From a virus: DNA of 36,326 nucleotides. The DNA lies in IMG/VR virus record IMGVR_UViG_3300023108_000076, positions 1-36,326 of that record. One strand, 5' to 3'. Under the pieces are notes generated by a model. That model had not been told where the DNA came from, made no database searches, and worked only from the letters and a program-made list of their open reading frames with translations. The position numbers were made by a program, and so were the translations under genes. Of the stretch, positions 1 to 25,084 are shown one piece after another (position 1 is the first letter of the stretch; every line of letters begins with the position of its first letter).

Positions 1-205
1 ATTTGAAATTAGTGTTTGAAAGATAAATTAATATATTTTTAGCAGTTAGCTTTTCTCTAGATTTTGTATAGTCTACCCACAAGACAAACTCTTTATCATT
101 TTCTTTTTGCTTGTATATATCAACTAGATCTTGTGGAGCTAATGGAAGAGCGTATGCTTTTTTATCTTGGTATTTTTTCTTTTGATTCACACTTTGTTCA
201 ATCAT
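1..205 (-). CDS. Partial CDS, unknown protein (N-terminal 68 residues)
   Basis: An open frame begins at the ATG at 205-203 and runs off the left edge without a stop. The visible protein starts MIEQSVNQKKKYQDKKAY and is rich in Lys, Gln and Asp, with no signal peptide or membrane segment. It continues through VLWVDYTKSREKLTAKNILIYLSN, written here in consecutive pieces: VLWVDYTKSR, EKLTAKNILI, YLSN. A Shine-Dalgarno-like AAGG lies about 8 bases before the ATG. The start is 14 bases after the stop of the 365-residue gene, so it is probably the next member of the same transcription unit as the radical SAM cassette. I do not recognise the family. The reading frame itself is likely real because of the spacing and ribosome-binding site; the function is unknown. 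Confidence 0.6.
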   Translation of the reverse strand, partial: MIEQSVNQKKKYQDKKAYALPLAPQDLVDIYKQKENDKEFVLWVDYTKSREKLTAKNILIYLSNTNFK

Positions 206-219
206 AATATTACCTTATT

Positions 220-1317
220 TTATAGTGGATATTTGTGAATTAAATATGGTATTCTGTTTTGTCTTTTACTGAAAAATTGTACATCAGTATTAATTAGTCT
301 TAAATCTTCAGACAATGTTTCTATATTATAATCACCTTGTAATACCATTTTAACAATAGGGAATACATTATTAATTTCTGTATATAAATCATTATATTCC
401 CAACCACTACTAGATTCAGCAACTTTAGCATCATGAGCAGCAATAAATGCTGGATCGTCTTTTACTTTATTCCAAAGTTCTTCTAATTTATAAAATGCTA
501 ATGTATAGTTACCAGTATTAGCAGCATTTACATATACTTCTTTAAAAAATTCTTTTTTGTCTGTAGCATAATTATTTGAGTCAGTTGCATGCTCGTTCAT
601 CCAATCTATTACTGATAATAAGTATGCAGTGTAATGACGTCTTGATGTGAAATGTTCCATAACATCTTGTGCTAAAACAGATGAATGAATTGTAAGCTTT
701 TCAATTATTAAATTTTTAACACCGTCGCATGGATAAGTATCATTTAAAAAGAATAATAAATCATAACTAAAATTCTTTCCATCTTGATATGTAATATCAA
801 AAGCTGGAGTATCAGAATCTGCTAGTGTATCTAAACAATGTTGTCTTGCGTCATTTAAAATAGTTGAATCACTCATAAATGATAGCACCAAGTCTGATTC
901 TACAATTGCTTCTATAAAATCAGCTGTAATTTCATTTATAGATGTATTTGAGTTTTCATAAAAGCCAGAAGCATCTAATAAGCCAGCAGTGTAACGAGAA
1001 AATACGTTAAGCATATCACTTTCATCAGTAAATGCAATGATATACTTATCACTATTTTGTAGAAATGCAGAGTTAGCAACATCTGTAAATTCACTAAACG
1101 CTATATAATCACCAGCACCAGTTCTTATACTTTCTGCTAAGGTTGTATATTCATCATTAATAATTGATACTTCGGTATTACTAGAATTAACTACTAAGAT
1201 ATCACGAGCATCACCTGTATGATAAAAAGAATTTAATTCAAAAACAACAGTTCCTATATTTGTTGTATTTGTAATATATTTCTTATTATTTAAATAATAT
1301 AAACTCTGTCCAATCAT
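220..1317 (-). CDS. Unknown 365-residue protein coupled to the radical SAM gene
   Basis: The product is a soluble-looking acidic protein of 365 residues with no signal peptide, membrane span or motif I recognise. The N-terminal third is mixed (MIGQSLYYLNNKKYITNTTN). The middle and C-terminal parts look helical, for example around DVMEHFTSRRHYTAYLLSVI and LAFYKLEELWNKVKDDPAF. It has two widely spaced cysteines (in DARQHCLDTL and TYPCDGV) and no obvious metal cluster. The ATG overlaps the TGA of the upstream radical SAM gene (TCAT on the plus strand, 1314-1317), and GGAGAGG stands a few bases ahead, so translation is probably coupled to the enzyme. This tight link suggests a partner in the same process: a recognition or scaffold protein, a second modifying enzyme of unknown fold, or a further structural protein. 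That role is inferred from position only. Confidence 0.75.
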   Translation of the reverse strand: MIGQSLYYLNNKKYITNTTNIGTVVFELNSFYHTGDARDILVVNSSNTEVSIINDEYTTLAESIRTGAGDYIAFSEFTDVANSAFLQNSDKYIIAFTDESDMLNVFSRYTAGLLDASGFYENSNTSINEITADFIEAIVESDLVLSFMSDSTILNDARQHCLDTLADSDTPAFDITYQDGKNFSYDLLFFLNDTYPCDGVKNLIIEKLTIHSSVLAQDVMEHFTSRRHYTAYLLSVIDWMNEHATDSNNYATDKKEFFKEVYVNAANTGNYTLAFYKLEELWNKVKDDPAFIAAHDAKVAESSSGWEYNDLYTEINNVFPIVKMVLQGDYNIETLSEDLRLINTDVQFFSKRQNRIPYLIHKYPL

Positions 1318-2489
1318 GAAGCCTCTCCTAATATTTCCATTGCGTCGTCATTCCATGTAAAATCAAATGGATTATAATAATCAAGTATATCTTTATTTAA
1401 TACACATCCATCAATACCCAAAGTTTCTTGGGCTTCAAATATTAATCTGCTAGCACAAGCAACAGAGTATTTACAATTAGAACAATCTTTTACTTTACTA
1501 GATTTATTTATACCTTTTGTTACTAATTGATTTTTTCTTTCTAATATTTCTTCAAATGATAAACCCGTTACATCTAAATTTTTATTTTGTAAAAAGAAAG
1601 CTTGTTCATGAAGCATTACATTTAAATGCGTTGTAGGCCCATCTTTACCAGGAATAACAGTTAATCCTATAAAATTAATAGAGTTACAATATAGATTAGC
1701 CATAGACATTGTAGCATTATAAGCATTATCTTCATCTATAACTTTACCTAAAAATTCGTTCCAACTATCTAAATTTCTTTTTTGAATAAAAGTAGATGGT
1801 GCTCTAGAAAAAGCAGGATTCATTTCTACAATTGTTTCGTATTCATTTAGAGATTTTTGTATAATTCTATTATATGTTTCTTTATCTATTTTTTTACCAA
1901 CAACGTTAGATGCTTGTAATGTCCAAGACCAATCCATTTTCTTTGGAGTTTCATTTTTAAAGAACTCTATTTTTTCCATTACATCATTAAAGTATTGATC
2001 GTCATCTAACATTTGATCTATTTTACTAATAGGCATAATAAATTCAATAATCATATCTCTTCTGAATTTATTTTCATCGTCTAATATAGAAAATATTTCT
2101 TTTACTTTTTCCATTGTTGCTAAATCAAATTTAGCAGGAGCAGCAATACGAGCACCTACATGCTCTCTCATTATTTCTTGTATTGTTTGATTATTTAGAA
2201 TTTCTTTTGTGTTATTTGCTGTAAAAAAATCTGTAGGTCCTATTACAAATTCTCTAAGATTTAATCCTGTTCTTTTTACGCCATCAGCTAATTCTTTTGC
2301 TCTATCTAATATTTGCTGATTCATGCTTTTATCAATATTTTTATTAACAAAACATCCTAAGCAGCCATGATCGCATCCAGATAAAACTTCTGTTTGAATA
2401 AGCACATCAAATTTCTGAGCATTCGAAGGTGGCAGGCTTTCAGGACCAGAATATCTCATTTGTTTACAATATGATTTTTGCATACTCAT
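1314..2489 (-). CDS. Radical SAM enzyme with SPASM-like C-terminal cysteine cluster
   Basis: This is probably a peptide-modifying radical S-adenosylmethionine enzyme of 391 residues. Near the N-terminus, C39, C43 and C46 form the canonical CX3CX2C motif (GCDHGCLGCF) that binds the catalytic 4Fe-4S cluster, and it follows a strand-like FDVLIQTEVLSG as in the TIM-barrel fold. The C-terminus carries C336, C339, C345 and C362 (CX2CX5CX16C), like the auxiliary-cluster cysteines of SPASM or twitch domains in RiPP maturases. It starts at the first of two close ATGs: the GGGAG ribosome-binding site is 9 bases from the first and 15 from the second. It follows the two small Cys/His-tailed proteins by 2 bases and overlaps the next gene by 4. 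Family knowledge plus context make those small proteins the natural substrates; this is inference. Alternatives are a radical SAM enzyme acting on another virion protein, or on a host target. Confidence 0.88.
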   Translation of the reverse strand: MSMQKSYCKQMRYSGPESLPPSNAQKFDVLIQTEVLSGCDHGCLGCFVNKNIDKSMNQQILDRAKELADGVKRTGLNLREFVIGPTDFFTANNTKEILNNQTIQEIMREHVGARIAAPAKFDLATMEKVKEIFSILDDENKFRRDMIIEFIMPISKIDQMLDDDQYFNDVMEKIEFFKNETPKKMDWSWTLQASNVVGKKIDKETYNRIIQKSLNEYETIVEMNPAFSRAPSTFIQKRNLDSWNEFLGKVIDEDNAYNATMSMANLYCNSINFIGLTVIPGKDGPTTHLNVMLHEQAFFLQNKNLDVTGLSFEEILERKNQLVTKGINKSSKVKDCSNCKYSVACASRLIFEAQETLGIDGCVLNKDILDYYNPFDFTWNDDAMEILGEAS

Positions 2490-2491
2490 TT

Positions 2492-2582
2492 TTATCTTCT
2501 CCCTCTAGAGCCGTGACAACTTTGGTGACAACTATTGTGACATAGATAAGCATTAACTGACCTATTACTTATTCTACCTTCA
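2492..2582 (-). repeat. Conserved 3' block of the tandem small genes (second copy at 2878-2968)
   Basis: The 3' ends of the two small genes are nearly identical at DNA level. Over the first 51 bases (2492-2542 and 2878-2928) I see a single change, a silent TGT/TGC cysteine codon. Similarity stays high to about base 91. Further upstream the copies diverge except for short blocks such as the one encoding YRRATQGQWSSTGT. This indicates a tandem gene duplication in which the tail is under strong constraint or is homogenised by gene conversion. Confidence 0.85.
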
Positions 2583-2875
2583 ATTACATCTACGGTTCTT
2601 CTTACTAAATCTTCTAATGTATCAACAATATCCTGAGCATACATTAAATTACCACTGGTAATACCACCATCTACATAATTATTATATATACTGTTTGATG
2701 CGTTTACATACTCAAATCTAGAATATGCATATGTTGTTCCAGTACTAGACCACTGACCTTGTGTAGCTCGTCTATATACATTAAGTGTCCATCGCATGGT
2801 TTTATCAAACGTTCTTAACTGTGCTCCTCCATACGACTGCACCCAAGAATTAATATCACCTCTATCTGCAGTCAT
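2492..2875 (-). CDS. Small protein with C-terminal Cys-His-x-Ser triple repeat, copy 1 (candidate modified-peptide precursor)
   Basis: The product is a 127-residue protein whose last residues are LCHNSCHQSCHGSRGRR, three consecutive CHxS units followed by a basic RGRR tail. The rest lacks cysteine. It contains QLRTFDKT, YRRATQGQWSSTGT, YNNY and LVRRTVDVIEGRISNRSVNA, all shared with the tandem paralogue upstream; I count about 70% identity over the last 109 residues. There is no signal peptide or membrane segment. The start codon lies 2 bases after the upstream copy's stop, behind a strong AGAGGGAGAAG ribosome-binding site. The layout of a conserved N-terminal region, a short C-terminal Cys/His/Ser-rich repeat and an adjacent radical SAM maturase resembles RiPP precursors, notably the HxsA proteins of His-Xaa-Ser systems. 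Alternatively it is a metal-binding fibre tip or adhesin, given its place next to the fibre gene. Function is inferred. Confidence 0.82.
   Translation of the reverse strand: MTADRGDINSWVQSYGGAQLRTFDKTMRWTLNVYRRATQGQWSSTGTTYAYSRFEYVNASNSIYNNYVDGGITSGNLMYAQDIVDTLEDLVRRTVDVIEGRISNRSVNAYLCHNSCHQSCHGSRGRR
2496..2506 (-). promoter_or_regulatory. Ribosome-binding site inside the RGRR codons, before the radical SAM gene
   Basis: On the minus strand AGAGGGAGAAG encodes the last residues (R-G-R-R) of the copy 1 small protein and ends at its TAA. The same bases form a strong Shine-Dalgarno sequence about 9 bases from the ATG of the radical SAM gene. Its strength relative to the second ATG (MSMQ...) favours the first ATG as the start. 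Confidence 0.7.
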
Positions 2876-2877
2876 AG

Positions 2878-3258
2878 TTATCTTCTCCCTCTAGAGCCGT
2901 GGCAACTTTGGTGACAACTATTGTGACACAAATAGGCATTAACTGTCCTATTACTTATTCTACCTTCTATTAAATCAACAGTTCTTCTTACAAGACTTGT
3001 TATAGAATCAGTAACATCAGCAGATCTAATAATACCGCCTGTATAAATTCCGCTATCTAAATAATTATTATATAAGGAATAAGCGGCATTTCTATATTCA
3101 AATCTATGATAAGAATAGTGCGTGCCAGTGCTAGACCACTGACCTTGTGTAGCTCGTCTATAAGTATTAACACTTAATAGTATGGTTTTATCAAACGTTC
3201 TTAATTGACTTCCTGCTTGACTTTGCATACTAGAATTTAATTGTGAATATGTTGGCAT
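2878..3258 (-). CDS. Small protein with C-terminal Cys-His-x-Ser triple repeat, copy 2 (candidate modified-peptide precursor)
   Basis: This 126-residue paralogue of the next gene has an identical last 21 residues, including CHNSCHQSCHGSRGRR. Its first 18 or so residues differ (MPTYSQLNSSMQSQAGS), which suggests that the N-terminus is free to vary while the tail and the QLRTFDKT and YRRATQGQWSSTGT blocks are held. It is the first gene of the putative cassette. Its ATG follows the stop of the 3194-residue fibre gene directly, and GAGG stands 11 bases ahead of the ATG. An exact TATAAATA late-promoter octamer lies about 70 bases upstream, inside the fibre gene. Co-expression with the fibre is therefore likely. 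The alternatives are as for its twin: RiPP-like substrate, fibre-tip or adhesin subunit, or metal-binding virion protein. Confidence 0.82.
   Translation of the reverse strand: MPTYSQLNSSMQSQAGSQLRTFDKTILLSVNTYRRATQGQWSSTGTHYSYHRFEYRNAAYSLYNNYLDSGIYTGGIIRSADVTDSITSLVRRTVDLIEGRISNRTVNAYLCHNSCHQSCHGSRGRR
2882..2892 (-). promoter_or_regulatory. Ribosome-binding site inside the RGRR codons, before small protein copy 1
   Basis: The identical AGAGGGAGAAG sequence at the 3' end of copy 2 precedes the ATG of copy 1 at about 9 bases. The duplicated unit therefore carries a built-in ribosome-binding site for whatever gene follows it. Confidence 0.7.
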
Positions 3259-6200
3259 TTATACTTTAACCTCAACTTCTCCATTACCATCGCAATCACC
3301 TACTGCAACGCCTATTATCTCAAAAGTATTTATATCTTTTGTGCCATAATCAACAGCTTTTCCTCTACCGTCTTTATCTGCAATGATCCATTGTCCTTTT
3401 TTAGCAGTACCATTAATTAATACTGGAATACGTCCTTTAAGAGCAATAAATGGATTCATCTTAGCTTTCTTAGATTTACTATCTGGTTTAATTCCCATAT
3501 CGTTCATTTGTACCGCAGGATTAGTAGAAACTGCACCGGCTAATGGCATACCAGGTTGGAAAAGAGTAACCTCTGAATCACCATCTAAGTTAATACCAAG
3601 TACAGTACCTGGCTCATAGATATCATCTGCTCTATAGCGCTCCGCCAAGTCAGCCCATCTTGCTGATGTTGCTGTACCAACATATAAACCGTTATTATCG
3701 ATATATGATCTGTTAGAACCATTACGACGGAACTGAACGATAAGTGATGAGTTACCACCAGATTCTAAATAGAAACGGTTTGAGTGGTATTCAAGTTTAC
3801 CAGCGTCGTTACCAATGTTACCAGTCCAAGATTCGTTACTAGATTCGATAAAGCGAAGAGTTGGTGAGTAACCATCTTGGTGGCGAGTTTGTAGCTGCCA
3901 TTGACCTGCCGCATTTAAGTCACCAGACCAAGTTCTATCACCATACATCCAACGACACATTGTACCATTATAAGCAGCTCTTAACTGTAAGCTCATTGAA
4001 GAACTGTTGTTGTTACCAGTTATAGCATAGTATTGGCCTTGATATGAATAAGCGTGTACACCAGTGCCTTGGTTGTAGATACCTTCACGAGAGTTATCAT
4101 TACGGAACCAGTTACGGGCGTAGATTTCGGTAGCTCTTATATAACTATTAAAATTAGATCCAGATGCTGGATTTACATAGTAACCAGTATTATCTGAATC
4201 ATAGAAGATAGGTGAACGCATACTTGACGAAGCATAAGCTACACCACCAACATGTAATCTATAAGAATCAGGTTCACCACCACTTAATGATAAGTTACCA
4301 TTGTGTTTAAGTTGGAAGTATTCGGAACCGTGCGATGTCCAATCTTGTGGGAATGGAGAATTATTACCCCAGCGAATAACAAATGAACCAACATAACGAT
4401 CATCTGCACCCAATGCCCAAACTTGGTCTTGCCCCGCAGAGTTGGTAGCGTCTGAGAACTCAATACACGGATCACCTGCATAACCAAACATGCGAATACG
4501 AGCATAACCATTACTAGCAGATTGCATCGTTAGCCAAGTGTCATTATTATCTCCATCTATTTGAATATAACCACGAAGACGAGCTGCTCTACCACTATCT
4601 GCTGGATTAATATAATATGTTGTATTATTTGAATCGTAGAAGATTGGTGCTCTTAATGAAGAACCAGCTTGTAGGCTGTTATTAACATAAACGTTATTAC
4701 CACCCAATGGATCAGTCGCGTTGTTAACCGACATGACCTGACCAGCCATGTTGTAATCATTATAGAAACGAATACCATTATAGTCAGCATTTGCACCAAG
4801 TTTAATACCAGTATGGAACGCAATACGTAGATCAGGATAACGATAAGACCAACCACCACCTTCACGGAAGATAGCGTAAGCTTCAGATCTACCAGAATCC
4901 CAGTATAAACCAAATCTATCGTCTGAAGAAACACTACCGTCGTTTGTAAAGTAGTTTGCACGAACTTGGTTCATTCGAGATGTACCGTTAGGATCTACAT
5001 AATAATTGGTATCATTAGAATCATAGAAGATCGGTGAACGTATATCTGAACTATGCCAGAGGTAATCAGTATTTAGTCTACCATATCGAGTACTACCTCG
5101 GTACCATTCCATAATTTCTGTATTATCAGAAGAGTATTGGTCTGCATCAACAACAGTACGTGCTTGCAATCTAATATAATCAGAAGAACCAGTACCGTCA
5201 TTTTCAGCACCAAGTACTAAAGCACCGTTTTCACCGGAATTATCATAGTCTGGATCATATGAAATATATGCAAAGTCAGATGGAGCATTTACACCAGATC
5301 TAAAGTAAATAGTAATAGGCTGATCATTTCCTGAATGGAATTCAGCAGCGGTATTATTAAGCATATCACGTAATTTACCGCCTAAATGCGATGGAGAGAT
5401 ATACGAAGAAGATCCTGCGGAATCTGCGTGGCGACCTTTGAAGTATAATTTACCTCGCAAATCAATATAATTAATTATAGAAGTACCACCAAAATCACCA
5501 TAATAATTAGTATCGTTTCGATCATAGTATTGTTGAGCATAATTAGATCCAAGAGTTAATACGTTACCATCACCACGAATAATCATATTCCATTGACCAC
5601 CGAGACCACCATCACGGAATGAAATATCTTCGCCACCCGATGTTGCAATAATTAGGTGAGCATCATTTGATTCAGTAGCTTGAATATAACCACGAATATT
5701 ACCACCCGAAGTTTGATACTCAGTATATCCACCAGAAGCATGTCTTGTAATATTCACTATTGAAGTACTAGCTGGATCCATATAATAACTAGTATTATTT
5801 TCATCATAATATCTTGAAGCATATAAGTCATTACCACTACCATCTGGATTAGAATTATATACAGCGATATTACTATAAGAAGAATATGCAGTGCTTGATC
5901 CCCAAGATTGTTGCCACAATCTCATTTGGCGACCAGATTTCTTAAACATTAATAAGTTATCTGAACCACCAGAAGCATCTGTGTAAGATCTTAAGTGTAA
6001 GTAATCAGCGTATGGCGAAGCGTTGTCGTTGTTCCAAGAAGTGAAACCAAACTTCAATTCACCAGCAGTGTCTTCACTTGGAGCAATAATGCGATTATCT
6101 CTTCTTCTTAGAGATCCTGAGCTTCCTGTAATACCAGGTGCAGTAATATCTTCAAGAACTGTTAGTCCGCGGAATCTTGATGTACTATTTGGATTCGCGT

Positions 6201-9200
6201 AGAAACCGGTATCGTTAGAATCATAGAAGATTGGAGCACGGTAAGAACCGCGGGCTTCCATGTATCCTGACGCTGTTCTTTCTTCCCAAGTACCGTTATA
6301 ATACAAATATACTCTAGCATCACGCTCGATGTAAACAGCCCATTCATTGCTTGGAGTTTTTAAACCAAAATGATTATCATCGTCAAAGTAAATGCGACCA
6401 CAATCAGTACTATCTGAGTCGCGGAAAATGATTTGACCATGATCACTGTTATTAGAACGAATATTTAATTCTTCACCATTAGTATCGTAAATATCCCAAC
6501 CGTTTGGAGTTTGGAATCTATTAGCTTGCATAACATTGGTAATAGAAGTACCAGCAAAATTACCATAATAAGATGTATCATCTTGATCATAGAAAAGAGG
6601 AGAACGCATAGAGTTAGGTGCATAACCATATCCTCCACGAGTACCTAATTGTTCTACGTTATCTGCATAAAGTTGTACAAAATGCGCATTACCATTACCT
6701 GGACCATTAGTATTGAATCGAGCGATATCAAAGGCACCAGCAGAACCACCTCGGATTCTAAGACCTTGATAAGTATTCCAATACATACCATCGAAGCCAC
6801 CAGAACCTGCAGCACCACGAGTAGTAGGACCACCATAATAATTGTTCCAAAGAACGTGGTTTGTATCTGTTCCAGAGTTAAACCAAATGGCATTTTCGTT
6901 ATAATCTCTTTGTAATTTAAGACCACCAGTTCTCAGATATAAATTAGCAAAGATGGATGAACCTGCTGGATCTGCATAGTAGTTTCCATCATTGGAATCA
7001 TAGAAACGCTGGGCTCGCATATAACGACCAGCCCAAACATCACCAACAGAATCAACACGCATGCGCATTGTACCATTGCCAGTTCCAGAAGTAAACTGTA
7101 GGTTACCACCTGAGTTTGTACTTAGGTTATCTGGTGATTCGTAAATCTTCCAATCATTACCGCCTTTCCAACGAATACCTTCTTGTGGACCTGGATCATT
7201 AAACGTTAAGTTGTTTAAGTTATCAATAGTACCATTGTTCCAATTCCAAGTACCCTGAACGTTACCGCCTGAAGCAGGATCCATATATCTTGCTGTATTA
7301 TCACGATCTCTAAAGTTGCTTGCATCAACTGTATTTAACTTAGATGTTGAAGCAGGATCTAAATAGAAAGTATTGTCATCTGAATCATAATAACGAGGTG
7401 CATACACATTAGATGTAGTACGTATATTAGCTCTTAATTGAGATCGTTTAAGAATTGGTGGACCAAATTCTCTAATAGCTCCACCAGCACTATAGTTCAT
7501 TAATAAAATTAAACGAACATATTTAACTGCTCCACCATCAGATCCATTATATGGAGTATGAGATGTTGGAAGTGTATGATGCCCACTAAATGTTCTCCAA
7601 TTAGTGTCTGTTAAATTATTACCACCTACAACAAAATATGTAATACCATCATTTGTTGCAATTGGCTTTTTATCTTTATCATATCGGCGAACACCCATGT
7701 ATAATAATCCGCCTGATCCTGAAATAAATCTGGCAGAAACTTCACCGTAAATTTCTTCACCTGGTTCTACAGCGATAAAGTCTGAATCAAATGTTCTATA
7801 TCCAGATGTTCTTAATGCATAACTAGCATTAAATGGACCATTATTATTTTTGGTATATTCTGATGTAGTTGTTGTAGGAGGATTTTCAATACCTGTTAAT
7901 GTTTGAATTACTCGTTTTTCCCAGTAATCGTTACCATCAAATAATGTATCGTCAGCAATACCAGTACCATATTGCTTTAATAGATTTAAGTTTTCATTAC
8001 CGCCAGATATTGCAAAACTTCCAGCACTAACTTCTCTCTTAAACCAAGCATCTCCGTTGTCTAAATCAATAGCTGCTTTAGGATCGCCTGCTCCAACAAA
8101 TATAACTTCGTTTGGATTAGCACTACCAAAATGACTTAATGATGATGTTGTTGTTGCCCAGAACATACCCCAGTTATTTGCTGGAGTCCAAACCCAATGG
8201 TTTGCATCTTGCGGTACAAGTAATTTATTTGTTGTTACATCTCCTGTAGCAAATCCATCTCGAACAATTTGTCCATTAACTTTCAGCGCTGTAGCAGTAT
8301 TTCCTGCAGCAAAATTTGCATAGTAATTACTGTTATCGCTATCATAGAAAATAGGTGAACGCATTGAAGTAGGTGCATAACCATATCCATTTTCAGCACT
8401 TAATTGATGTACACCATTAGAATATAATCTAGTAAAGTTATTATCTTGTGCGTATAGTACCCATTCGTTACGAGTATCATTATAGAGACCCATATTAGTA
8501 CTACCATCTGAAATAAATGCCCAGTCATTGCTAATAGCATAACCAGCATATCCATTAGTAGAACCTTCTACTTTAATAGTACCGTAATCTCCATTTGGTG
8601 AATCGATATATCTTGAAGCAGTATCCATTTCAAATCTACTACCTCTAACATTATTCATTACTGAAGTGCTAGCAGGATCTGTGTAGAATGAAGTATTATT
8701 ACTATCATAAAATATTGGTGCTCTAAAACTATCGCTTGCTAATACATAATTGTAATATGCAATTAAAGCATCTTTTGAAGTATATGGACTAGCACTTTTC
8801 TTAAGACGTAAACGAATTGATTCGTTAGCATCATAGTCATTTCCAGCTTCAAGAATTAATGCACCTGTACCTGTGCCTGCCGGTGATTCACCATAAATTT
8901 TCCATCCATCAGTGTCACCCATTTCTTGGCCAATGTAATAAGTAGGAAGATTAGCATTACCAAAATGACTAACACCAACCGTATTTTGCGGCATTGTAAT
9001 ACGAGCCATAACAGATGTACCAGCAAAATCACCATAGAAATTATTATCGTTGAAATCGTAATAAGTTGGGAAGTATGCATAATCATTTCCACTATAAGCA
9101 CTAATACCGCCACCATCAAATTTAGTAAACTTTTGGAAATAAAATTCTGGTCTATCTGTTTGGAACTGAACGAAACTTGCGTTCATAGAACCAATATCTA

Positions 9201-12200
9201 AAAATCCTGTAGGAGTTTGTAATCTAAATGCATTTGATGTATTAGGATCAATATAGAAATTATTATTTGATATATCACCAAATCTATCCGAATAAACATT
9301 TACAGCAAAATCTGCTGAATCATTATCAATGTTTAATCTTTGAGTATTGCCAGTCCAAACTCTAAATGTATCATTTGCAGCAAAACCAAAATAGTTATCT
9401 GTATCTCCGTTGTGCTGAATATAATCATCAATACCAATTCTATTAAGAACAGAAGTACCAGCTGGATCTAAATAATAATTCGCATCTGAATAATCGAGAT
9501 ATCTACCTGCTTGAATATCACCAGATGTATAAATTGTTTTATTGTTACTTACTCTTAAATAAGTAGAGTCGGTCATATACCAACCACCACCTTCACCAAA
9601 TGTAAGTTCATTGTGTTTTATAAATGAGCTAGTACCATTTCCAAATACAACTGCATCATCACTACCAGTTAATTGAACAGATCCATTAACATGTAATTTA
9701 TTAGGATTAATACTACCAATTATAGGAGTGGCATCTGAATTAGCATATGTAATAGATTGGTCACCAACAATAACATTCATGCTCGAATCTACTGTTAGAC
9801 CAAATGTTGCACCTGTATCAATAATACTCCATGCACCTGTTGATTCTATAACATTATAGAAATTATTAAGACCATCACCACGCTCACTTAAGATTTCTGT
9901 ACCATCTGCATAGTAAGATGTAAATTTATTGTTTGTTGATAAAGGATTATTTCCAATATCAATTCTATTTAAGTGACTTAATGCATAATTACCATTACCA
10001 CCAGATATTGCAAAAAGAGGATTACTTGTTGCTGCATGAGCGCCATAAGGTGATATTGTTATACCACCATTACCAGTAGTATCATCCCATCTATCAACAT
10101 CTGTTAAATTACCAAGTGCAATTCTACCACTAAGTGCTAATGCTGTAACTGTACTAGATGCACCAACATTCAAATAATTAGTTGTTCCTGTTGTTGCATA
10201 ATAATAAGGTGCTCTTACTGGAACAGATGCTGCAACATTAGAGCTAGTAATTGTTAATCTAGTTGCTGAGTCTGCATCAAATGCTATTTGATTATCAGTA
10301 AAAGAAAGTTTTGTATCAGTATCTCCATTATGGAATAAATCGCTATCAATACCAATAGAGCCTAAAGTTGAAGCACTACCTGGATCTAAGAAATAAGAAT
10401 TATTGTCAGAATCATAATAACGAGGAGCATAAACATTTACAGCAAAATCTGCTGAATCAGTATCTATATTAAATCTTTGTACTCCACCTGTGAAAATTTT
10501 GAATGTGTCATCAGCTGGAAAACCAATATAAGTATCTTCGTCACCAATATGACGAATGTAATCCGCAATATCAATTCTACTAAGAATAGAAGTTCCTGCA
10601 GGATCTGCATAGTAAGTATTATCGTTACTATCATAATAACGAGGAGCATAAACGTTTACACTAAAGTCTGCTGAGTCTAAATCAATACTTAATTTACTTG
10701 TATTATTTACAAATACTCTAAATCTTTGATTAGTATCAAATCCAAAGTATGTTGTAAGATCTCCTCTATGTCTAATATAATCATCAATATCAACGGTATT
10801 CATTTGAGAATTACCAGCTGCGTCTACAAAATATTGAGTATTATCTGAATCGTAATAGATAGGTGAACGCATTGCACCTGTTGCAAGAGCATAAGTACTT
10901 GTAATTCTGAATTCGTCATTTCCGCCAGCACTAAATCCAATAGTATCAGCACCATAACGATACATACCAGTATTATTATCTAATTCAAATGAGTATGTTG
11001 GTAAAGCTAAAGTACCAGCTGCTGCTGTAATTCTACCAGCAGTATTAATTGCGGTGCCTGTATTACTAAAGTCTCCAAAGTATGCTAAATTATCTGCATC
11101 ATAATAAATGCTTGCATATGATGAAGATACTGAAATAGTTCCACCAAGGAAGTCATTATTTCCAATATTTACATCAGCATTAAAATTAAATCTATTTAAA
11201 CCAAATCCACCAGATACTATTTCAAAGTTTACTGAATGATCTGTCGCATTTGTTTCATCTTGATAATAACGAATATATCCTTGACCGTCTGTTGATTGGA
11301 TTTGGAATCTTTCTGTTGCACTAGAACCAATACTAATTTGAGCATTAGCTGTACCAGTATAAACATTTAAATTATAAAGCTGTGAATTACCATCCGGATC
11401 AACTAAGTAGTTAGTATCTGCAGAAGAAATAAATGATGTACCTTTAATGTCATTAAAAGCATATACAAAATTATTATCGGCTTTTAATCTACTTGAACCA
11501 CCAGTTTGAATATCTATTGTATCGCCTAAGAACTGGATGCCTGTGTCTGAATCTCCATTATGCTTAATGTATTCATCTATACCAATTTGATTTAATACTG
11601 AATTTCCATCAGGATCTAACAAATAAGTATTATCTTCAACATCTACAAAACTTTTACCATAAACGTTTTCTTCTACAATCCAGTCATCATTTGTATCTAA
11701 TCTTGCGGCATAATTAAATGTAGTATCTAAAAAACCAATTTCACCAGCAGAAGAATAAATTGTTCTATTATTACCAGCGCCATCCATATAAATGTAAGCA
11801 CCACCTGTACCAGTACCAACAGTTAATGTACCTTGTACAGCATGATTTCCAGAAGTTACAGCACCAGTACTAGTTGCTCTTAATTTTGGACTTCCTCCAT
11901 AAAGTACCTCACCATAAGATACTCCAGACTGATTCCAAAATGATGCAATACCAGCGTCTGCAAATGTAGAACCTTGCTTACCAGAAAGATATACGGTACC
12001 ATTACCTACACCAGAAGCACCACCGGCCTCTATAGGAAACGAATTTGCAAAAGATGTAATTGTACCAGTTAAACTAGAAGAATCACCTATTAATAAACCT
12101 TGTGAGACACCACCAATTTGCCACTTATCAGAAGCTTCTATCCAAGTAAATGATGCGTTATCTAAAGTACCTCTTTCAACTTCGATACCAGCATTTTCTG

Positions 12201-12843
12201 ATGGAGTGCTTCCTGTATAATTACTATTAAGAGTAATAATATTATCAGCAAGTAAAATCTCTTCTGTATTAACAGTTGTTGTATTACCAGTTACTGTAAG
12301 ATCACCATTAATAACAAGACTACCATTCATAGTATCGTCTTGATCTGATCTTAAGAATTGTAATGAATCTAAACCATCAAGTAAGTCAGCGTCTAATCCT
12401 GAGTTAGCACCATCATTACCGGCATTCCAAAATACATTGCCGTTATAAGTTGGTTCGCGGAAAAATGTAATACCAGAAGAATCAAATGATATGTCAACAC
12501 TATTATTATATCCAATTTCGATACCATCAATATCGTTATTAAATTTAATAAAATTATCTTCATTACTTAATTTATAATCATTACCACCAGTATAAGTAAT
12601 TGTTAAACCATCTGCGTGGCTTGAAGATGATGTGAAATTAGCAATTGTAGCATTAACTCCACTAGTATTATTAATACTAATGCTTGCTGTATTAGATGTG
12701 GAATAGTTAACTTCAAATGTGCCGGTATATTTAGAATCACCGACTACTGTAAGTATTTCACTTCCGTAGGAAGATGTACCTATGACGACACTCTCTAAAG
12801 ACAAGAGTCCGTTCTTTACTCTGAACTTGTTATTGTTTGCCAT
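3259..12843 (-). CDS. Giant tail fibre-like protein (3194 residues) with about 21 YYDSDN...DPxxTS repeats
   Basis: This is a virion fibre protein, probably trimeric and exposed. The N-terminus (MANNNKFRVKNGLLSLESV) leads into beta-rich stalk sequence, with the DADLLDG and SENAGIEVERG motifs common in phage fibres. From about residue 390 to 2890 it repeats a unit of the form (R/Y)(S/A)P(I/R)(F/Y)YDS(D/N)(N/D)xxYYxDPAxTSxxN about 21 times, with variable inserts of 30-200 residues. The C-terminal 135 residues start ATSARWADLAERY, then EPGTVLGI, ALKGRIPVLING and KKGQWIIADKDG. This terminal module is widespread in phage fibres and resembles the Peptidase_G2-type autoproteolytic or trimerisation domains; which of these it is cannot be settled here. 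The ATG is preceded by GGGGAGAG and a late promoter. The two small Cys/His-tailed genes begin immediately after its stop. The C-terminal half (3.6-7.3 kb) is noticeably richer in GC than the rest. Confidence 0.9.
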   Translation of the reverse strand: MANNNKFRVKNGLLSLESVVIGTSSYGSEILTVVGDSKYTGTFEVNYSTSNTASISINNTSGVNATIANFTSSSSHADGLTITYTGGNDYKLSNEDNFIKFNNDIDGIEIGYNNSVDISFDSSGITFFREPTYNGNVFWNAGNDGANSGLDADLLDGLDSLQFLRSDQDDTMNGSLVINGDLTVTGNTTTVNTEEILLADNIITLNSNYTGSTPSENAGIEVERGTLDNASFTWIEASDKWQIGGVSQGLLIGDSSSLTGTITSFANSFPIEAGGASGVGNGTVYLSGKQGSTFADAGIASFWNQSGVSYGEVLYGGSPKLRATSTGAVTSGNHAVQGTLTVGTGTGGAYIYMDGAGNNRTIYSSAGEIGFLDTTFNYAARLDTNDDWIVEENVYGKSFVDVEDNTYLLDPDGNSVLNQIGIDEYIKHNGDSDTGIQFLGDTIDIQTGGSSRLKADNNFVYAFNDIKGTSFISSADTNYLVDPDGNSQLYNLNVYTGTANAQISIGSSATERFQIQSTDGQGYIRYYQDETNATDHSVNFEIVSGGFGLNRFNFNADVNIGNNDFLGGTISVSSSYASIYYDADNLAYFGDFSNTGTAINTAGRITAAAGTLALPTYSFELDNNTGMYRYGADTIGFSAGGNDEFRITSTYALATGAMRSPIYYDSDNTQYFVDAAGNSQMNTVDIDDYIRHRGDLTTYFGFDTNQRFRVFVNNTSKLSIDLDSADFSVNVYAPRYYDSNDNTYYADPAGTSILSRIDIADYIRHIGDEDTYIGFPADDTFKIFTGGVQRFNIDTDSADFAVNVYAPRYYDSDNNSYFLDPGSASTLGSIGIDSDLFHNGDTDTKLSFTDNQIAFDADSATRLTITSSNVAASVPVRAPYYYATTGTTNYLNVGASSTVTALALSGRIALGNLTDVDRWDDTTGNGGITISPYGAHAATSNPLFAISGGNGNYALSHLNRIDIGNNPLSTNNKFTSYYADGTEILSERGDGLNNFYNVIESTGAWSIIDTGATFGLTVDSSMNVIVGDQSITYANSDATPIIGSINPNKLHVNGSVQLTGSDDAVVFGNGTSSFIKHNELTFGEGGGWYMTDSTYLRVSNNKTIYTSGDIQAGRYLDYSDANYYLDPAGTSVLNRIGIDDYIQHNGDTDNYFGFAANDTFRVWTGNTQRLNIDNDSADFAVNVYSDRFGDISNNNFYIDPNTSNAFRLQTPTGFLDIGSMNASFVQFQTDRPEFYFQKFTKFDGGGISAYSGNDYAYFPTYYDFNDNNFYGDFAGTSVMARITMPQNTVGVSHFGNANLPTYYIGQEMGDTDGWKIYGESPAGTGTGALILEAGNDYDANESIRLRLKKSASPYTSKDALIAYYNYVLASDSFRAPIFYDSNNTSFYTDPASTSVMNNVRGSRFEMDTASRYIDSPNGDYGTIKVEGSTNGYAGYAISNDWAFISDGSTNMGLYNDTRNEWVLYAQDNNFTRLYSNGVHQLSAENGYGYAPTSMRSPIFYDSDNSNYYANFAAGNTATALKVNGQIVRDGFATGDVTTNKLLVPQDANHWVWTPANNWGMFWATTTSSLSHFGSANPNEVIFVGAGDPKAAIDLDNGDAWFKREVSAGSFAISGGNENLNLLKQYGTGIADDTLFDGNDYWEKRVIQTLTGIENPPTTTTSEYTKNNNGPFNASYALRTSGYRTFDSDFIAVEPGEEIYGEVSARFISGSGGLLYMGVRRYDKDKKPIATNDGITYFVVGGNNLTDTNWRTFSGHHTLPTSHTPYNGSDGGAVKYVRLILLMNYSAGGAIREFGPPILKRSQLRANIRTTSNVYAPRYYDSDDNTFYLDPASTSKLNTVDASNFRDRDNTARYMDPASGGNVQGTWNWNNGTIDNLNNLTFNDPGPQEGIRWKGGNDWKIYESPDNLSTNSGGNLQFTSGTGNGTMRMRVDSVGDVWAGRYMRAQRFYDSNDGNYYADPAGSSIFANLYLRTGGLKLQRDYNENAIWFNSGTDTNHVLWNNYYGGPTTRGAAGSGGFDGMYWNTYQGLRIRGGSAGAFDIARFNTNGPGNGNAHFVQLYADNVEQLGTRGGYGYAPNSMRSPLFYDQDDTSYYGNFAGTSITNVMQANRFQTPNGWDIYDTNGEELNIRSNNSDHGQIIFRDSDSTDCGRIYFDDDNHFGLKTPSNEWAVYIERDARVYLYYNGTWEERTASGYMEARGSYRAPIFYDSNDTGFYANPNSTSRFRGLTVLEDITAPGITGSSGSLRRRDNRIIAPSEDTAGELKFGFTSWNNDNASPYADYLHLRSYTDASGGSDNLLMFKKSGRQMRLWQQSWGSSTAYSSYSNIAVYNSNPDGSGNDLYASRYYDENNTSYYMDPASTSIVNITRHASGGYTEYQTSGGNIRGYIQATESNDAHLIIATSGGEDISFRDGGLGGQWNMIIRGDGNVLTLGSNYAQQYYDRNDTNYYGDFGGTSIINYIDLRGKLYFKGRHADSAGSSSYISPSHLGGKLRDMLNNTAAEFHSGNDQPITIYFRSGVNAPSDFAYISYDPDYDNSGENGALVLGAENDGTGSSDYIRLQARTVVDADQYSSDNTEIMEWYRGSTRYGRLNTDYLWHSSDIRSPIFYDSNDTNYYVDPNGTSRMNQVRANYFTNDGSVSSDDRFGLYWDSGRSEAYAIFREGGGWSYRYPDLRIAFHTGIKLGANADYNGIRFYNDYNMAGQVMSVNNATDPLGGNNVYVNNSLQAGSSLRAPIFYDSNNTTYYINPADSGRAARLRGYIQIDGDNNDTWLTMQSASNGYARIRMFGYAGDPCIEFSDATNSAGQDQVWALGADDRYVGSFVIRWGNNSPFPQDWTSHGSEYFQLKHNGNLSLSGGEPDSYRLHVGGVAYASSSMRSPIFYDSDNTGYYVNPASGSNFNSYIRATEIYARNWFRNDNSREGIYNQGTGVHAYSYQGQYYAITGNNNSSSMSLQLRAAYNGTMCRWMYGDRTWSGDLNAAGQWQLQTRHQDGYSPTLRFIESSNESWTGNIGNDAGKLEYHSNRFYLESGGNSSLIVQFRRNGSNRSYIDNNGLYVGTATSARWADLAERYRADDIYEPGTVLGINLDGDSEVTLFQPGMPLAGAVSTNPAVQMNDMGIKPDSKSKKAKMNPFIALKGRIPVLINGTAKKGQWIIADKDGRGKAVDYGTKDINTFEIIGVAVGDCDGNGEVEVKV
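3327..3334 (-). promoter_or_regulatory. T4-type late promoter octamer within the fibre gene, upstream of the small-protein cassette
   Basis: On the minus strand the sequence is TATAAATACTTTT. The octamer TATAAATA is the exact T4 late-promoter core, and the following bases resemble the extended T4 form (TATAAATACTATT). It sits in the codons for DINTF near the C-terminus of the 3194-residue protein, 69 bases before the ATG of the first small gene. Transcription would start a few bases downstream and leave a leader of about 60 bases. An A/T octamer is expected a handful of times by chance in 36 kb this AT-rich, so position is the main support. Confidence 0.5.
4140..11660 (-). repeat. Region of YYDSDN...DPxxTS coding repeats in the giant fibre gene
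   Basis: About 21 copies of a roughly 30-residue signature recur at irregular spacing, for example RSPIFYDSNDTNYYVDPNGT and YAPRYYDSDDNTFYLDPAST. Early copies (about 9.2-11.7 kb) are followed by a second repeated element of the form IDDYIQHNGDTDNYFGFAAN ... DSADFAVNV, present at least four times, with near-identical DNA around 9291-9330 and 10425-10465. Two weaker copies of the signature also occur in the neighbouring 1300-residue fibre protein, so the module is shared between genes. Confidence 0.85.
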
Positions 12844-19837: not shown

Positions 19838-22800
19838 TTAGTCAGACTTAAGCTGATCGATTTCATCTTTCAAATCCTTAATTGCTTCGATGAGAAGACC
19901 AACCATATTTCCGTAAGCAACACTCTTTGTTTTATTTTCATCATCAGCAGTATGTACTACTTCTGGTAAAATCTTTTCTACTTCTTGCGCAATAACACCG
20001 ATAGATCTTACATCTGGATTGTGTATCATATTATAATAAACACCTCTCATTTCCACTACTTTTCTTAAAGCATCTTTAACTGTTTCTATATTTTCTTTAT
20101 GTCTTTCGTCTGATAAAGATTCTACATCACCGGTTATTGTTAAGTTACCAGTTGAGATATCTAATGATAATCTATCAACACTAGTTTGACTATCAGTAAC
20201 AGTAAATGTGGTTGTTACTGCTGAATTTGCATCAAAAGTAAATTTAGTTCCTGTAGATTCCCAATAAGCTCGCACATATGGAGTTGCTTCTAAACCACCA
20301 AACGTCGCTGCTATATCTGATGTGAAATGTAAGTCATCACCTACACCACCAGCAAATGTGGTTGCATTTAAATCACCAGTAATTGTAATATTACCAGCAA
20401 CTTCTAAATTTTCGACTGTTAATGTATCTGCATCAGATGTATAATAGAAGTTAGATTCACCACCTGGATTAGGACCAGTTGTACCCATAATCGGTCTATG
20501 AGTTGCTCCACCTTCAAACATTGCAATAAATACTGGAGTACCTTGTAAACCAGTTTCGTGAATATTTTGTAGGTTAGGAACACCACCTTGAATACCAGGT
20601 CCTTGTAAACCTTGAATACCTTGGAAACCTAATAAACCTTGAACACCTTGGAATGCTTGTGTACCTTGCATACCTTGTACACCTTGTCCGGTAAATCCTT
20701 GGAAGCCATTTAAACCTTGTATTCCTTGTATTCCTTGTAAACCTTGAGCACCTGCACCAATAGGACCTTGGAAACCTAAATCACCTTGTAGACCTTGTAC
20801 ACCTTGGCCACCACCTACACCTGGATCACCAACCGAGCCTTGAATACCATAACTACCTTGGATGCCTTGCGGACCTTGGAAGCCTTCAGTTCCTTCCTCA
20901 CCTGTTATACCTTGTATACCTTGGAAACCACCTATACCTTGAATACCTTCGTCACCAATACCAGTAGGACCTTGGAAACCTTGTACACCTTGATTACCTT
21001 CTCCGCTAACACCTTGAGTACCTTGACCACCGGCGTCACCTTCAGTACCTTGAGAGCCTTGGAAGCCTTGTGCACCAGTTCCTAATAAACCTTGAACACC
21101 TTGAACGCCTCCATCACCACCTGTACCTTGGAAACCTTGCGCACCCTGTGGACCTTGATTACCAAATCCAGCAGGACCAGTATCACCTTGTACACCTTGA
21201 ATACCTTGATTAGATATACCTTGTAAGCCTTGGAAACCTTGTACACCAGTAGCACCTACACCACCAATACCTTGAGTACCTTGGAAACCTCCACCACCTT
21301 GGATACCTTGTGGACCAAAGCTACCTTGCAATCCTTGGAAACCTTGAATACCTTCGTCTCCGCCTTCACCTTGCTCACCTTGTAAGCCTTGAATACCTTG
21401 TGCACCATCTGTACCTTGTGTACCGTCGCCACCAACAAAACCTGCAGTACCTTGGAAACCTTGTGTACCTTGAATACTTTGTGTACCTTGAATACCTTGA
21501 ATACCAATTCCACTAACACCTTGTACACCTTGTCCACCATCTGTACCTTGAGGACCGGCCGGACCTGGATCACCAATATCACCAGTTCTAGCAAATGTAA
21601 TAATAATATCTTCGCCATCCGGGAATGAAGTAGTAGATCCACTTACATAACTACAAGTAACTGAAAAATAACCAGAAACTTCTGCTAAAGCGGTAATCTG
21701 GAATACTGCGAAAATTGCAGGATCGGCTTTTTCTGTAACCTTAAAGTGACCTTTCATTGTACTAGTTGAATCATCAATAGTTCTTAAGAAAGGTTGAATA
21801 TCTGTAAAGCTATCATCTCTATCATCAATATACATCGTAGTAGCTGAATTTAGAGCTGTGTTATTGAATTTTAATTTACCTACACCAGGATCTACGTTTT
21901 GAGTATCTGTACTAAATGTATAATCAAATGTTACACCACCAAATGAACCTGTTGCACCTTGGAAACCTGGACCACCTTGAATACCCGTAGCACCTTGAAT
22001 ACCTTGCGGACCAATTAATCCTGGAAAACCTTGTACACCTTGGAAACCACTAGCACCTTGTGTACCTAATGTACCTTGTGTACCTTGAAGACCTAAACCT
22101 TGAGCACCTTGTAAACCTAATGTACCTTGTAGACCTTGCGCACCGTCTGTGCCTTGGATGCCTTGAGGACCAGCATCACCAGCTCTCGAGAATGTAAAGA
22201 TTACGTTTGGATTATTTGTAAAATATGTAGATGTTGCACCACTAGCGCCAGTAACATAAGTAATGTTCATGTCAAAGTGGTTTGTAAACTGTGTTAATCC
22301 TGTTAAGTTATATAGTAAGAATACCTCAGGATTATCTATTGAAAGAATCTTAATAAATCCTTTAAAGTTACCAGCAGCATCATCTAAACTTGCTAACCAT
22401 GTTTCAATATTAGTTCCACCTGCTTCAACATCATTCATTCTTAATATTGTAGCATTAGAAGGAGCTGAATTATTAAACTTTAATAATCCTGAAGCTGGTG
22501 CTGATGGAGAAATATCAGGTGTATAATTATATTCAAATGATGCACCACCAAATGCTCCTGCAAAACCTTGAGCACCTTGAATACCGTTTATACCTTGAAT
22601 ACCTTGAATTGATTGAGGACCTTGAATACCTTGTGGACCAAAGTCACCTTGAATACCTTGAATACCTTGCGCAGCTTGAGCACCTTGAATACCTTGTGGA
22701 CCAAAGTCACCTTGAATACCAATAGGACCTTGAATACCTTGGAGACCATATGCAGCTGGGATGAAAGTAATATATGCATCTGACCCGTAAGTTGGAACAA

Positions 22801-25084
22801 CTCCTGTAGTCCAACTTGTTCCAGGATTTGAATCTGTTCCACCTAATAAACCTTGATCAATAAGAGTTACATCAAAATTACCCCAGTCTGGCGAAGTATT
22901 TGAACTCCAAGTCCAGTTATCATAACTATATAATAACCACTCATAATCTCCGCTAGCGTCTTTTTCTGTTCGAACAAAAATTTGACCTTTTGGATCTGCT
23001 GTATTATTAGCTAAGTAGTTATATAAATCATCAACTCTTTTACCGGTGTCTGTTAGATCATCAATCCAAAACTCAGTTACATTAGCAACGTCACTATTAT
23101 TTAATGACCAACCATTTAATCCAGGAAAACCGCCCGATGTACTTGAATTAAATGTATATTTGAAAGTCATTCCACCATCATAACCGATGCTACCTTGAAG
23201 ACCTTGGATACCAGTATCACCTTGAATACCTGTAGTACCTTGAATACCTTCTGGACCGGCTGGTGTAAATGTAATTAGTGTATTAGGACCATGATCATTT
23301 AATACATTATCCCAATCGTAAGATGCAACACCACCAGAAGCAATATACGTGACATCAAAAATACCATATGATTTAGTTCCGCTATCCCAACTAAATCCGT
23401 CTATTTGATAAACTACAAAGTGATGACCAGATGGACCATCATTATCTGCAGTACTTTCAATAAGCATTTGTCCTTTTGGATTGCCAGGTAAAGTAGCAAT
23501 ATAATCAAAGAATTCGTCTAATTCATTATTATATTGATTGTTAGGAATATCATCAATATAAATTGTGTTAGCAGTTCTAATATCTGTAGAATTATTTCTC
23601 CAATATTTTGCTGAAGCACCTGGAGTTTTGAAACTTTCATATTGCCATTCCCAAGTTAATCCACCGTGATCACCGGTATGTCCTTGTAATCCTTGGAAAC
23701 CTTGTACACCTCTAGAACCTTGTAAGCCTTGAATACCTTGCATTCCTTGAATGCCTTGAATACCTTGTACACTTTGCGTGCCTTGTACACCTTGAATGCC
23801 TTGAAGACCTTGAATGCCTTGTGTACCTTGAATGCCAGTTGTGCCTTGTGTACCTTTTTCGCCTTGTAAACCTTGTACACCTTGGAAATTACGAGGTCCT
23901 TGTACACCTTGAGTGCCTTGAATACCAGTTGTGCCTTGCATTCCTTGAACACCTTGAACACCTTGATCACCGGTAATATCAAATGATACTAATAAAGGAT
24001 TTTCTGTTGTGTTATAACTAAAGTCTCCTAAAACAGCATCGCCTGAAATATATTGTACATCAAATTCCCAATAAGTATTTGCACCTGGTTGGTTGGTCAT
24101 TCCATCGACACCAAATGTAACATAATTTGATGGATCACCCCTTTGAGTAACTTTCATATACATCTTTCTACTAGAAGATGTAGTTGCTGCAGCAGTAAAT
24201 AATCCTTCTAAATCTACATTATAAAAATCTAAATCGTCGATCCAGATTTGTGTAGTATTTGCAAAGTTTGCAGTATTACTTGTTGGTCCATCAATTAAGA
24301 ATTTACCTGCTGTTGGATCTTGTTTTGTATTTGAAGCTAATGATAATCTGTATTCATATACACTACCTGAATCATCGCCATTATAACCTTGGAGACCTAG
24401 TGTACCTTGTACACCTTGGAATGCTTGCGGGCCTTGAACACCCTGAACTCCTTGATCGCCTTGAATACCTTGTATGCCCTGTACTCCTTGTACACCCTGC
24501 ACACCTTGAATACCTTGTGTGCCTTGCATTCCTTGAATACCCTGAACACCTTGTGCTGCTTGAGTTCCTTGAATACCTTGAATACCTTGGAAACCAATAA
24601 AACCACGAGAACCTTGAATACCTTCGTCACCAAGAATACCTTGAACACCTTGAATTGCTTCACCTTGTAATCCTTGGAAACCTTGTACACCTCTAAATGA
24701 ACCAACATTAATCCAAAGATCAGAACCACCTACATAGATCCAAAGTGTATCATCTGATTGGTCAATTACACCATCACCAACACTTGATCCTGGAAATTCT
24801 GTTTCTAATACTGAAGTATTGCCATCTGCTGTTTCACCAACAATAGTAAAACCTGGTCCATAAGCACCTTGGATACCTTGAACACCTTGAATACCTTGAA
24901 CACCTTGTACTGTACCGTTAGCTTGACCAAGCTCAACCCATGAAGTACCATCTGAAAGATAGACTTTTCCGTCATCGCCATATACCAAAGATCCTTCGTA
25001 AGGACTTGGATCTAATGTAATAGGAGTTGGTTGTGGCTTACCACTACCAATTATCCTGCTACCACTTATAGAACGAAAAGCCAT
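19838..25084 (-). CDS. Collagen-like tail fibre (1748 residues) with C-terminal S74 intramolecular chaperone
   Basis: This is a large fibre or spike protein. The N-terminal head (about 57 residues) includes [20 protein letters not shown]. Then collagen-type Gly-x-Gln tracts ([16 protein letters not shown]) alternate with five homologous globular domains of about 120-150 residues, each with a conserved IDD(L/I/R)-type core and KG(Q/H/F) motif. They lie at about 23975-24385, 23260-23660, 22750-23190, 22190-22555 and 21575-21945. The longest collagen tract (about 20585-21570) leads to a beta stalk ([19 protein letters not shown]). The last 100 residues are a Peptidase_S74 chaperone: [10 protein letters not shown] with the presumed catalytic Ser and Lys, then [15 protein letters not shown], then a coiled-coil tail ([12 protein letters not shown]). 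In this family the chaperone trimerises the fibre and cuts itself off. A GGAG ribosome-binding site precedes the ATG. No prolyl hydroxylase is visible nearby, and the tracts are poor in proline. Confidence 0.93.
20585..24905 (-). repeat. Gly-x-Gln collagen-like coding repeats
   Basis: Seven tracts of 9-base repeats (plus-strand look ACCTTGAAT/ACCTTGTAC) encode G-(I/V/F/L/T)-Q triplets: about 24865-24905, 24390-24700, 23670-23970, 23195-23255, 22560-22745, 21950-22185 and 20585-21570. The tracts are separated by globular-domain coding sequence. The same DNA produces long spurious antisense frames rich in Thr-Leu. Confidence 0.9.

Follow-up and report, generated by a model that had tools for sequence, protein, structure and literature searches.

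The chemistry of DynA, a SPASM radical SAM maturase, engages a His side chain. Another radical SAM maturase, PapB, forms thioethers between Cys and Asp/Glu (PMC9413430), and in Bdellovibrio, S74-chaperoned trimeric adhesive fibers serve prey recognition (PMC10769870). Genuine Hxs loci, which we found for comparison in 10 of 299 genomes, encode HxsA proteins whose tails (e.g., HRSHSSHRSHSSHRSS and SHASHASHASHASHAS) are made of 3–8 contiguous H-x-S triplets with a period of 3 and no Cys.

On the prevailing view, virion proteins undergo proteolysis or simple chemical cross-linking. Radical SAM genes have been recorded as cassettes in the host-recognition cluster of pelagimyophages (PMC7029224), as eight genes, termed 'highly unusual', in the structural cluster of phage 332-Vera (PMC12390700), and in jumbo phages (PMC5468394, PMC11898562); they are also listed in PMC8066314. 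The accessible text of the first four reports ties these genes to no substrate and to no (CHxS)3 tail. Radical SAM goes unmentioned in the jumbo-phage reviews PMC7824862 and PMC13282480, and no description of a system combining such a tail with an enzyme cassette was found in the open-licence literature.

The window analyzed here is a stretch of 36,326 nucleotides of viral DNA (positions 1 to 36,326 of IMG/VR record IMGVR_UViG_3300023108_000076). On its minus strand follow, in order, a gene for a 3194-aa tail fiber, P0003, P0002, P0001, P0004, and the beginning of another gene. All neighboring genes from the fiber to P0004 abut or overlap, as in an operon. The features are as follows:

1..205, minus strand: 5' part of P239, a universal partner of about 240 aa, cut by the window end (complete copy at 8285-9073 of contig L001)
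220..1317, minus strand: P0004, conserved partner Y, which adjoins the tail gene in most cassettes
1314..2489, minus strand: P0001, radical SAM-like enzyme (family rX) with a GC-DHG-CLGC CxxxCxxC motif, an invariant PTD, and a C-terminal CxxCx5C...C
2492..2875, minus strand: P0002, tail protein of 127 aa with C-terminus LCHNSCHQSCHGSRGRR and a body that is diverse among homologs
2495..2545, minus strand: codons of the P0002 (CHxS)3-RGRR tail, preceding Leu included
2878..3258, minus strand: P0003, 126-aa paralog of P0002 with an identical tail
2881..2931, minus strand: codons of the P0003 (CHxS)3-RGRR tail, preceding Leu included
3259..12843, minus strand: 3194-aa tail fiber gene, directly upstream of P0003
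12912..15452, minus strand: 846-aa tail fiber protein (phrog_32829, 1.6e-33)
19838..25084, minus strand: 1748-aa collagen-like fiber ending in a Peptidase_S74 intramolecular chaperone (PF13884, 9.6e-15)

The C-terminal 170 aa of the 3194-aa fiber are conserved in fibers ahead of other cassettes. At the far end of the window, positions 25618-36324 encode an open-ended structural protein of 3568 aa in which a unit of about 90 aa recurs many times (TPTNATYDPxTGxSxLTIGxHxF...HPRxTDP).

Positions 2492-2545, on the minus strand, read LCHNSCHQSCHGSRGRR and then a stop codon. P0002 and P0003 both terminate in CHNSCHQSCHGSRGRR right at the stop codon, which bears out the CHNS-CHQS-CHGS series that a preliminary description of this DNA had noted in both paralogs; each series closes with RGRR. 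The final 54 nucleotides of the two genes (2492-2545 and 2878-2931) differ at only 3 positions, against a protein identity of about 66%; this points to gene conversion at the end that codes for the tail.

Conservation of the tail was analyzed in two sets of loci collected through their enzymes, with no tail required: 47 loci selected by P0001, and 80 selected by rS1, the SPASM enzyme of sister cassettes. One or two tail proteins were present in 46 of the 47 P0001-selected loci (two copies in 40), and the sole tail-less locus, L047, is a contig that ends inside the enzyme gene. The tail was likewise present in 76 of the 80 rS1-selected loci, the remaining four contigs stopping just past rS1. 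C1, H2, C5, H6, C9, H10, R13, R15, and R16 were invariant in the 63 and 68 distinct tail proteins of the two sets. Ser was retained at positions 4, 8, and 12 in 128, 117, and 122 of these 131 proteins, respectively, and H-x-S at about 93% of positions. Thus, the H-x-S that had been reported for each unit is present in both paralogs but is not invariant, since Ser is replaced in some homologs; the invariant core of the tail is the Cys-His pairs and R-x-R-R, not H-x-S. A proposed test was whether, among homologs, the number of repeats varies while the CHxS period is kept. The period is kept, but all 131 enzyme-selected proteins have three units, with no two- or four-unit tail among them. A pattern asking for just two units before RGRR retrieved at least 152 distinct proteins, each with three; counts from public-database scans are lower bounds throughout. 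Codons for the Cys, His, Ser, and Arg residues of the tail vary synonymously, with Ser using both AGY and TCN, indicating that selection acts on the protein. Conservation of the tail motif is far beyond chance.

The tail can be written as a 16-residue C-terminal module, CHxSCHxSCHxS-R[GSA]RR. The bodies ahead of it are highly divergent and 74-309 aa long, or from about 100 aa upward when only complete proteins are counted, and Cys is scarce in them (no extra Cys in 96 of the 131 tail proteins). A short tblastn search of phages with the tail alone returned nothing, which reflects a limitation of that method. Searching viral contigs for a pattern of four Cys-His units turned up unrelated repeats in a noisy list, which was discarded; in several viral contigs (L263, L222, L202, and others), tandem Cys-His-x-x units are numerous and have no relation to the RGRR tail.

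Gene families were clustered around 109 non-redundant tail genes by simple ORF calling and single-linkage BLAST, so that the resulting counts are approximate. A P239 homolog was found in 97 of the 109 cassettes and the second partner, Y (the P0004 position), in about 86; within the latter, the P0004-type families Y7 and Y5 were grouped by position plus a weak local profile match (29%). Canonical radical SAM enzymes of four subfamilies, rS1 (CNLNCxHCFT), rS2, rS3, and rS4, occurred in 82 cassettes, and P0001-type rX enzymes in 46 (161 genes; in the lineage of the window, these fall mostly into five groups of paralogs). Other recurrent genes encoded a cupin (53 of 109), 2OG-Fe(II) oxygenases (at least 20), and a B12-dependent radical SAM enzyme nearest to KedN5-type C-methyltransferases (13). 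A tail-fiber gene lay ahead of the cassette in 71, and no protease, exporter, or immunity gene recurred in the 109. The usual order is fiber, cupin, rS1, tail protein, P239, Y, and more enzymes, and that in the lineage of the window is fiber, tail, tail, rX, Y, P239, and four further rX genes. Both forms are present, with differing tail-protein bodies, on one 151-kb phage contig (IMGVR_UViG_3300025138_000014; loci L029 and L136). In the cassette of Burkholderia phage FLC6 (L063), two adjoining dihydrofolate reductase genes were observed at 14137-15350, among the radical SAM genes.

P0001 gave only weak matches to the radical SAM superfamily (Pfam, below cut-off; NCBIfam). C39, C43, and C46 of the CxxxCxxC motif are kept in at least 90% of its 34 divergent family members, in which C336, C339, C345, and C362 are also near-invariant, and 12 of the 34 matched NrdG weakly. 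In hhalign comparisons, P0001 and rS1 aligned around their N-terminal motif (2.6e-5). Judged by its motifs and profiles, P0001 appears to be a remote member of the radical SAM superfamily; given the weak Pfam and NCBIfam matches, its activity could be other than radical SAM. The rS1 enzyme is, as judged from its profiles, of the SPASM radical SAM peptide-maturase type: TIGR04085 (SPASM) was matched by 24 of 28 members, the anSME, PapB, and DynA models by all 28, and DarE by 20. HxsB was matched by 22 of the 28, never as the best model.

A relation to Hxs proteins had been proposed from the motif, and we searched the window with the corresponding profiles. HxsA (TIGR03979), HxsB (TIGR03978), and HxsC (TIGR03977) gave no match in the window at E<=0.001, the small tail proteins included, and the three were absent from the P0001 profile listing at E<=10. 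None of the 34 P0001-family members matched an Hxs profile. In hhalign comparisons, P0001 aligned with HxsB over the C-terminal cluster region only (86%, 4.7e-6) and did not align with HxsC (0.9%). The rS1 and HxsB profiles aligned over their full length (98.6%, 5e-16). This match is no stronger than that between rS1 and rS2 (99.1%, 4.5e-19) and so does not imply membership in Hxs.

AlphaFold2 models were obtained for P0003 (pLDDT 82; mostly 74-93 in the body and 52-60 in the tail) and P0004 (pLDDT 84). Neither had a significant fold match among PDB or viral structures, and the modeled P0003 monomer does not look like any known fiber tip. Profiles of the tail protein, P0004, and P239 likewise gave no significant match to sequences of solved structures.

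The cassette occurs in T4-like, podovirus-like, and jumbo phages. In L017 it lies next to genes for a T4-type major head protein and a tail tube, and in L037 its neighbors are podovirus-like head genes. Cultured carriers, all six of them jumbo phages, are Burkholderia phages FLC6, FLC8, and SURPRISE13, Pseudomonas phage DT01, Agrobacterium phage Atu_ph07, and Sinorhizobium phage Phosso. Two isolate-type phage genomes, L096 (222,888 bp) and L186 (223,932 bp), also carry the tail. In Atu_ph07, the tail protein is gp170 (YP_009611835.1), the first product of a virion-protein cluster that the accessible text of the published study gives as CDS 170-215; all three of its clusters are exactly 46 CDS wide, so that the edge may be arbitrary (PMC6102473). 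The CDS numbering was checked against gp198, gp204, and gp215. Because the clusters are of fixed width, we downgraded these proteomic data as an indication that the tail protein is present in the virion.

A stricter tail pattern matched at least 10 contigs in 84,980 genomes, and several of these ten are probably phage contigs within MAGs. Cassette contigs L066, L067, L069, L071, and L075 had been binned in Euryarchaeota, Rickettsiales, and Rhodobacteraceae MAGs but look phage-derived rather than like host DNA. Two cassettes lie on long Bdellovibrionota chromosomal contigs, where the surrounding genes include thiolase, acyl-CoA dehydrogenase, ABC-F, and FixG, and the tail was found in at least 9 of 369 Bdellovibrionota genomes. 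In four loci (L427, L429, L439, and L443), rS1 and the tail gene have as neighbors a protein that combines a prepilin-like N-terminus with Peptidase_S74 (PF13884) and a conserved protein of about 200 aa. PF07963 was found in the prepilin-type genes of three of the four, in one of these below cut-off. These prepilin/S74-chaperone proteins are distinct from the tail protein, and they may form a pilus-anchored, phage-like fiber. In these four loci and in L428, prepilin-like/Peptidase_S74 genes are followed, beside the cassette, by the protein of about 200 aa, which ends in GRHWVKVK. Homology of the latter to the phage fiber C-terminal domain was considered and set aside; an HMM alignment made it plausible, and the profile-profile comparison was unsupportive (1.9%). 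Five of six Bdellovibrionota rS1 enzymes fall in one clade apart from phage rS1 (94/99). The main clue to function, drawn from gene order, is that phages and predators have in common a fiber context around this tail.

Taken together, the tail and its radical SAM set look like an undescribed system modifying the tip of an attachment structure. We modestly favor a reading in which a dedicated radical SAM system modifies the tail protein, itself part of, or capped onto, the host-attachment fiber, the association with the fiber being suggested by gene order alone. In this scheme, a small body domain would bear the 16-residue module, of which the Arg-rich end and the Cys-His pairs would be the site of recognition and modification, because the bodies diverge beyond recognition and the enzymes and tail do not. 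We infer from the wide range of bodies that recognition by the shared enzymes lies in the tail, and we think, with good if indirect support, that the radical SAM enzymes act on its Cys-His portion, presumably recognizing it via R-x-R-R. Several such enzymes would modify the Cys and His side chains to give a rigid, cross-linked tip: four to five P0001-type paralogs in the lineage of the window, and in sister lineages SPASM enzymes near the PapB, anSME, and DynA profiles, the B12 radical SAM enzyme, the cupin, and the 2OG-Fe oxygenases. Side-chain cross-links are the most likely chemistry on the tail, for which thioethers like those of PapB and His-linked bonds offer the best precedents; the enzyme mix also suggests formylglycine, methylation, or hydroxylation as alternatives. 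The tip so formed, at or close to the fiber, may be rigid or metal-competent. P239 and Y would be accessory factors (carrier, recognition, or assembly proteins), and the finished tip would help to bind the target cell. Against a single target, the enzyme sets vary by lineage and the tail hardly varies, so that part of each set may have different residues or proteins as targets. A bolder and rather doubtful extension is that the three-fold Cys-His module is a non-standard prosthetic tip built by radical SAM enzymes, covalently cross-linked or metal-charged, by which the fiber grips or mimics a Gram-negative surface ligand (e.g., a metal-siderophore) and is shared by unrelated phages and predatory bacteria.

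The same module could instead bind metal unmodified, the Cys-His pairs of three chains or one holding Fe, Zn, or Cu while the radical SAM enzymes act elsewhere. Three invariant, regularly spaced Cys-His pairs on bodies with few other Cys would suit such a site, and iron-binding HxH motifs are known in T4 gp37 and marine phage fibers (PMC11705849). We consider it unlikely, as it accounts neither for the invariant R-x-R-R end nor for the suite of radical SAM enzymes and oxygenases that accompanies the tail in almost all untruncated loci. A heme-c type reading as CX3CH was set aside, cytochrome maturation genes not having been seen in the cassettes on informal inspection. Alternatively, the tail could be a released RiPP, with the body serving as its leader; once cleaved off, it would work during infection as an antimicrobial or to control the host. 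Such a peptide would fit the precursor-plus-radical-SAM layout, which resembles RiPP clusters, and the B12 radical SAM and SPASM maturase profiles. This is improbable in view of the lack of a recurrent protease, exporter, or immunity gene in the cassette and of bodies that, at their length and with a defined predicted fold, are large for leaders; moreover, the constant neighbor is a tail fiber or, in bacteria, a pilin-like fiber.

Two further explanations draw on the profile matches of rS1. The three Cys could be oxidized to formylglycine in the manner of anSME, and the resulting aldehydes would then form covalent bonds with amines of the target surface. Every rS1 member does match the anaerobic sulfatase maturase model (best 2.5e-17), but at about 41-60 bits against a curated cut-off of 349 bits; the tail lacks the classical C/S-x-P/A-x-R target, and rS1 is often missing near the tail in the P0001 lineage; we regard this chemistry as quite improbable. 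That the system belongs to the Hxs family proper, or branched directly from it, is highly improbable. H-x-S occurs in every unit and rS1 aligns with HxsB along its full length, but at a strength equal to that between any SPASM maturases and with other models always scoring better. HxsA differs in period, composition, and copy number, and the P0001 family lacks an HxsC match.

If the favored reading of a modified, fiber-linked tail protein is true, a multi-enzyme radical SAM pathway acting on such a protein adds a layer to cell recognition by phages and predators, and it explains the five to eight radical SAM genes of some jumbo phages and pelagimyophages. The prosthetic-tip extension, if true, would provide a first example of a chemical warhead that enzymes build onto the attachment organelle of a virus. 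The P0001 family, which is without a curated model, may be a source of new peptide-modifying enzymes, and the exact 16-residue candidate substrate is available in cultured phages.

Like Hxs, the cassette has a short C-terminal H-x-S repeat on a small protein beside radical SAM genes. The Hxs tail has a period of 3, no Cys, and a variable number of repeats, whereas the tail described here has a period of 4, invariant Cys-His, three units, and an R-x-R-R end; P239, Y, the cupin, and the 2OG oxygenases are absent from Hxs. The proposed link thus survives as a useful analogy (a C-terminal repeat beside radical SAM enzymes, with its period conserved), and membership, for which the window gave no profile match, is not supported. 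Ranthipeptide/CXXX-repeat maturases (PapB NF047865, TIGR04115) are the nearest or nearly nearest profiles to rS1 and share the four-residue Cys spacing, but rS1 scores far below their family cut-offs (50 versus 340 bits and 32 versus 350 bits). Ranthipeptide systems have one radical SAM enzyme; here there are several, with no Asp/Glu acceptor in the tail and with a fiber context. The dynobactin and darobactin maturases (DynA, DarE) are related SPASM enzymes, but their Trp/Asn/Tyr core motif is absent here and the cassette is not a secreted-antibiotic cluster. Bdellovibrio MAT adhesins have not been reported with radical SAM enzymes (PMC10769870). With the T4 gp37 HxH tip and S74-chaperoned fibers, the cassette has in common a fiber neighborhood, a His-rich, metal-capable motif, and nearby S74 chaperone genes; it differs from them in that the tail is on a separate small protein, with Cys and modification enzymes.
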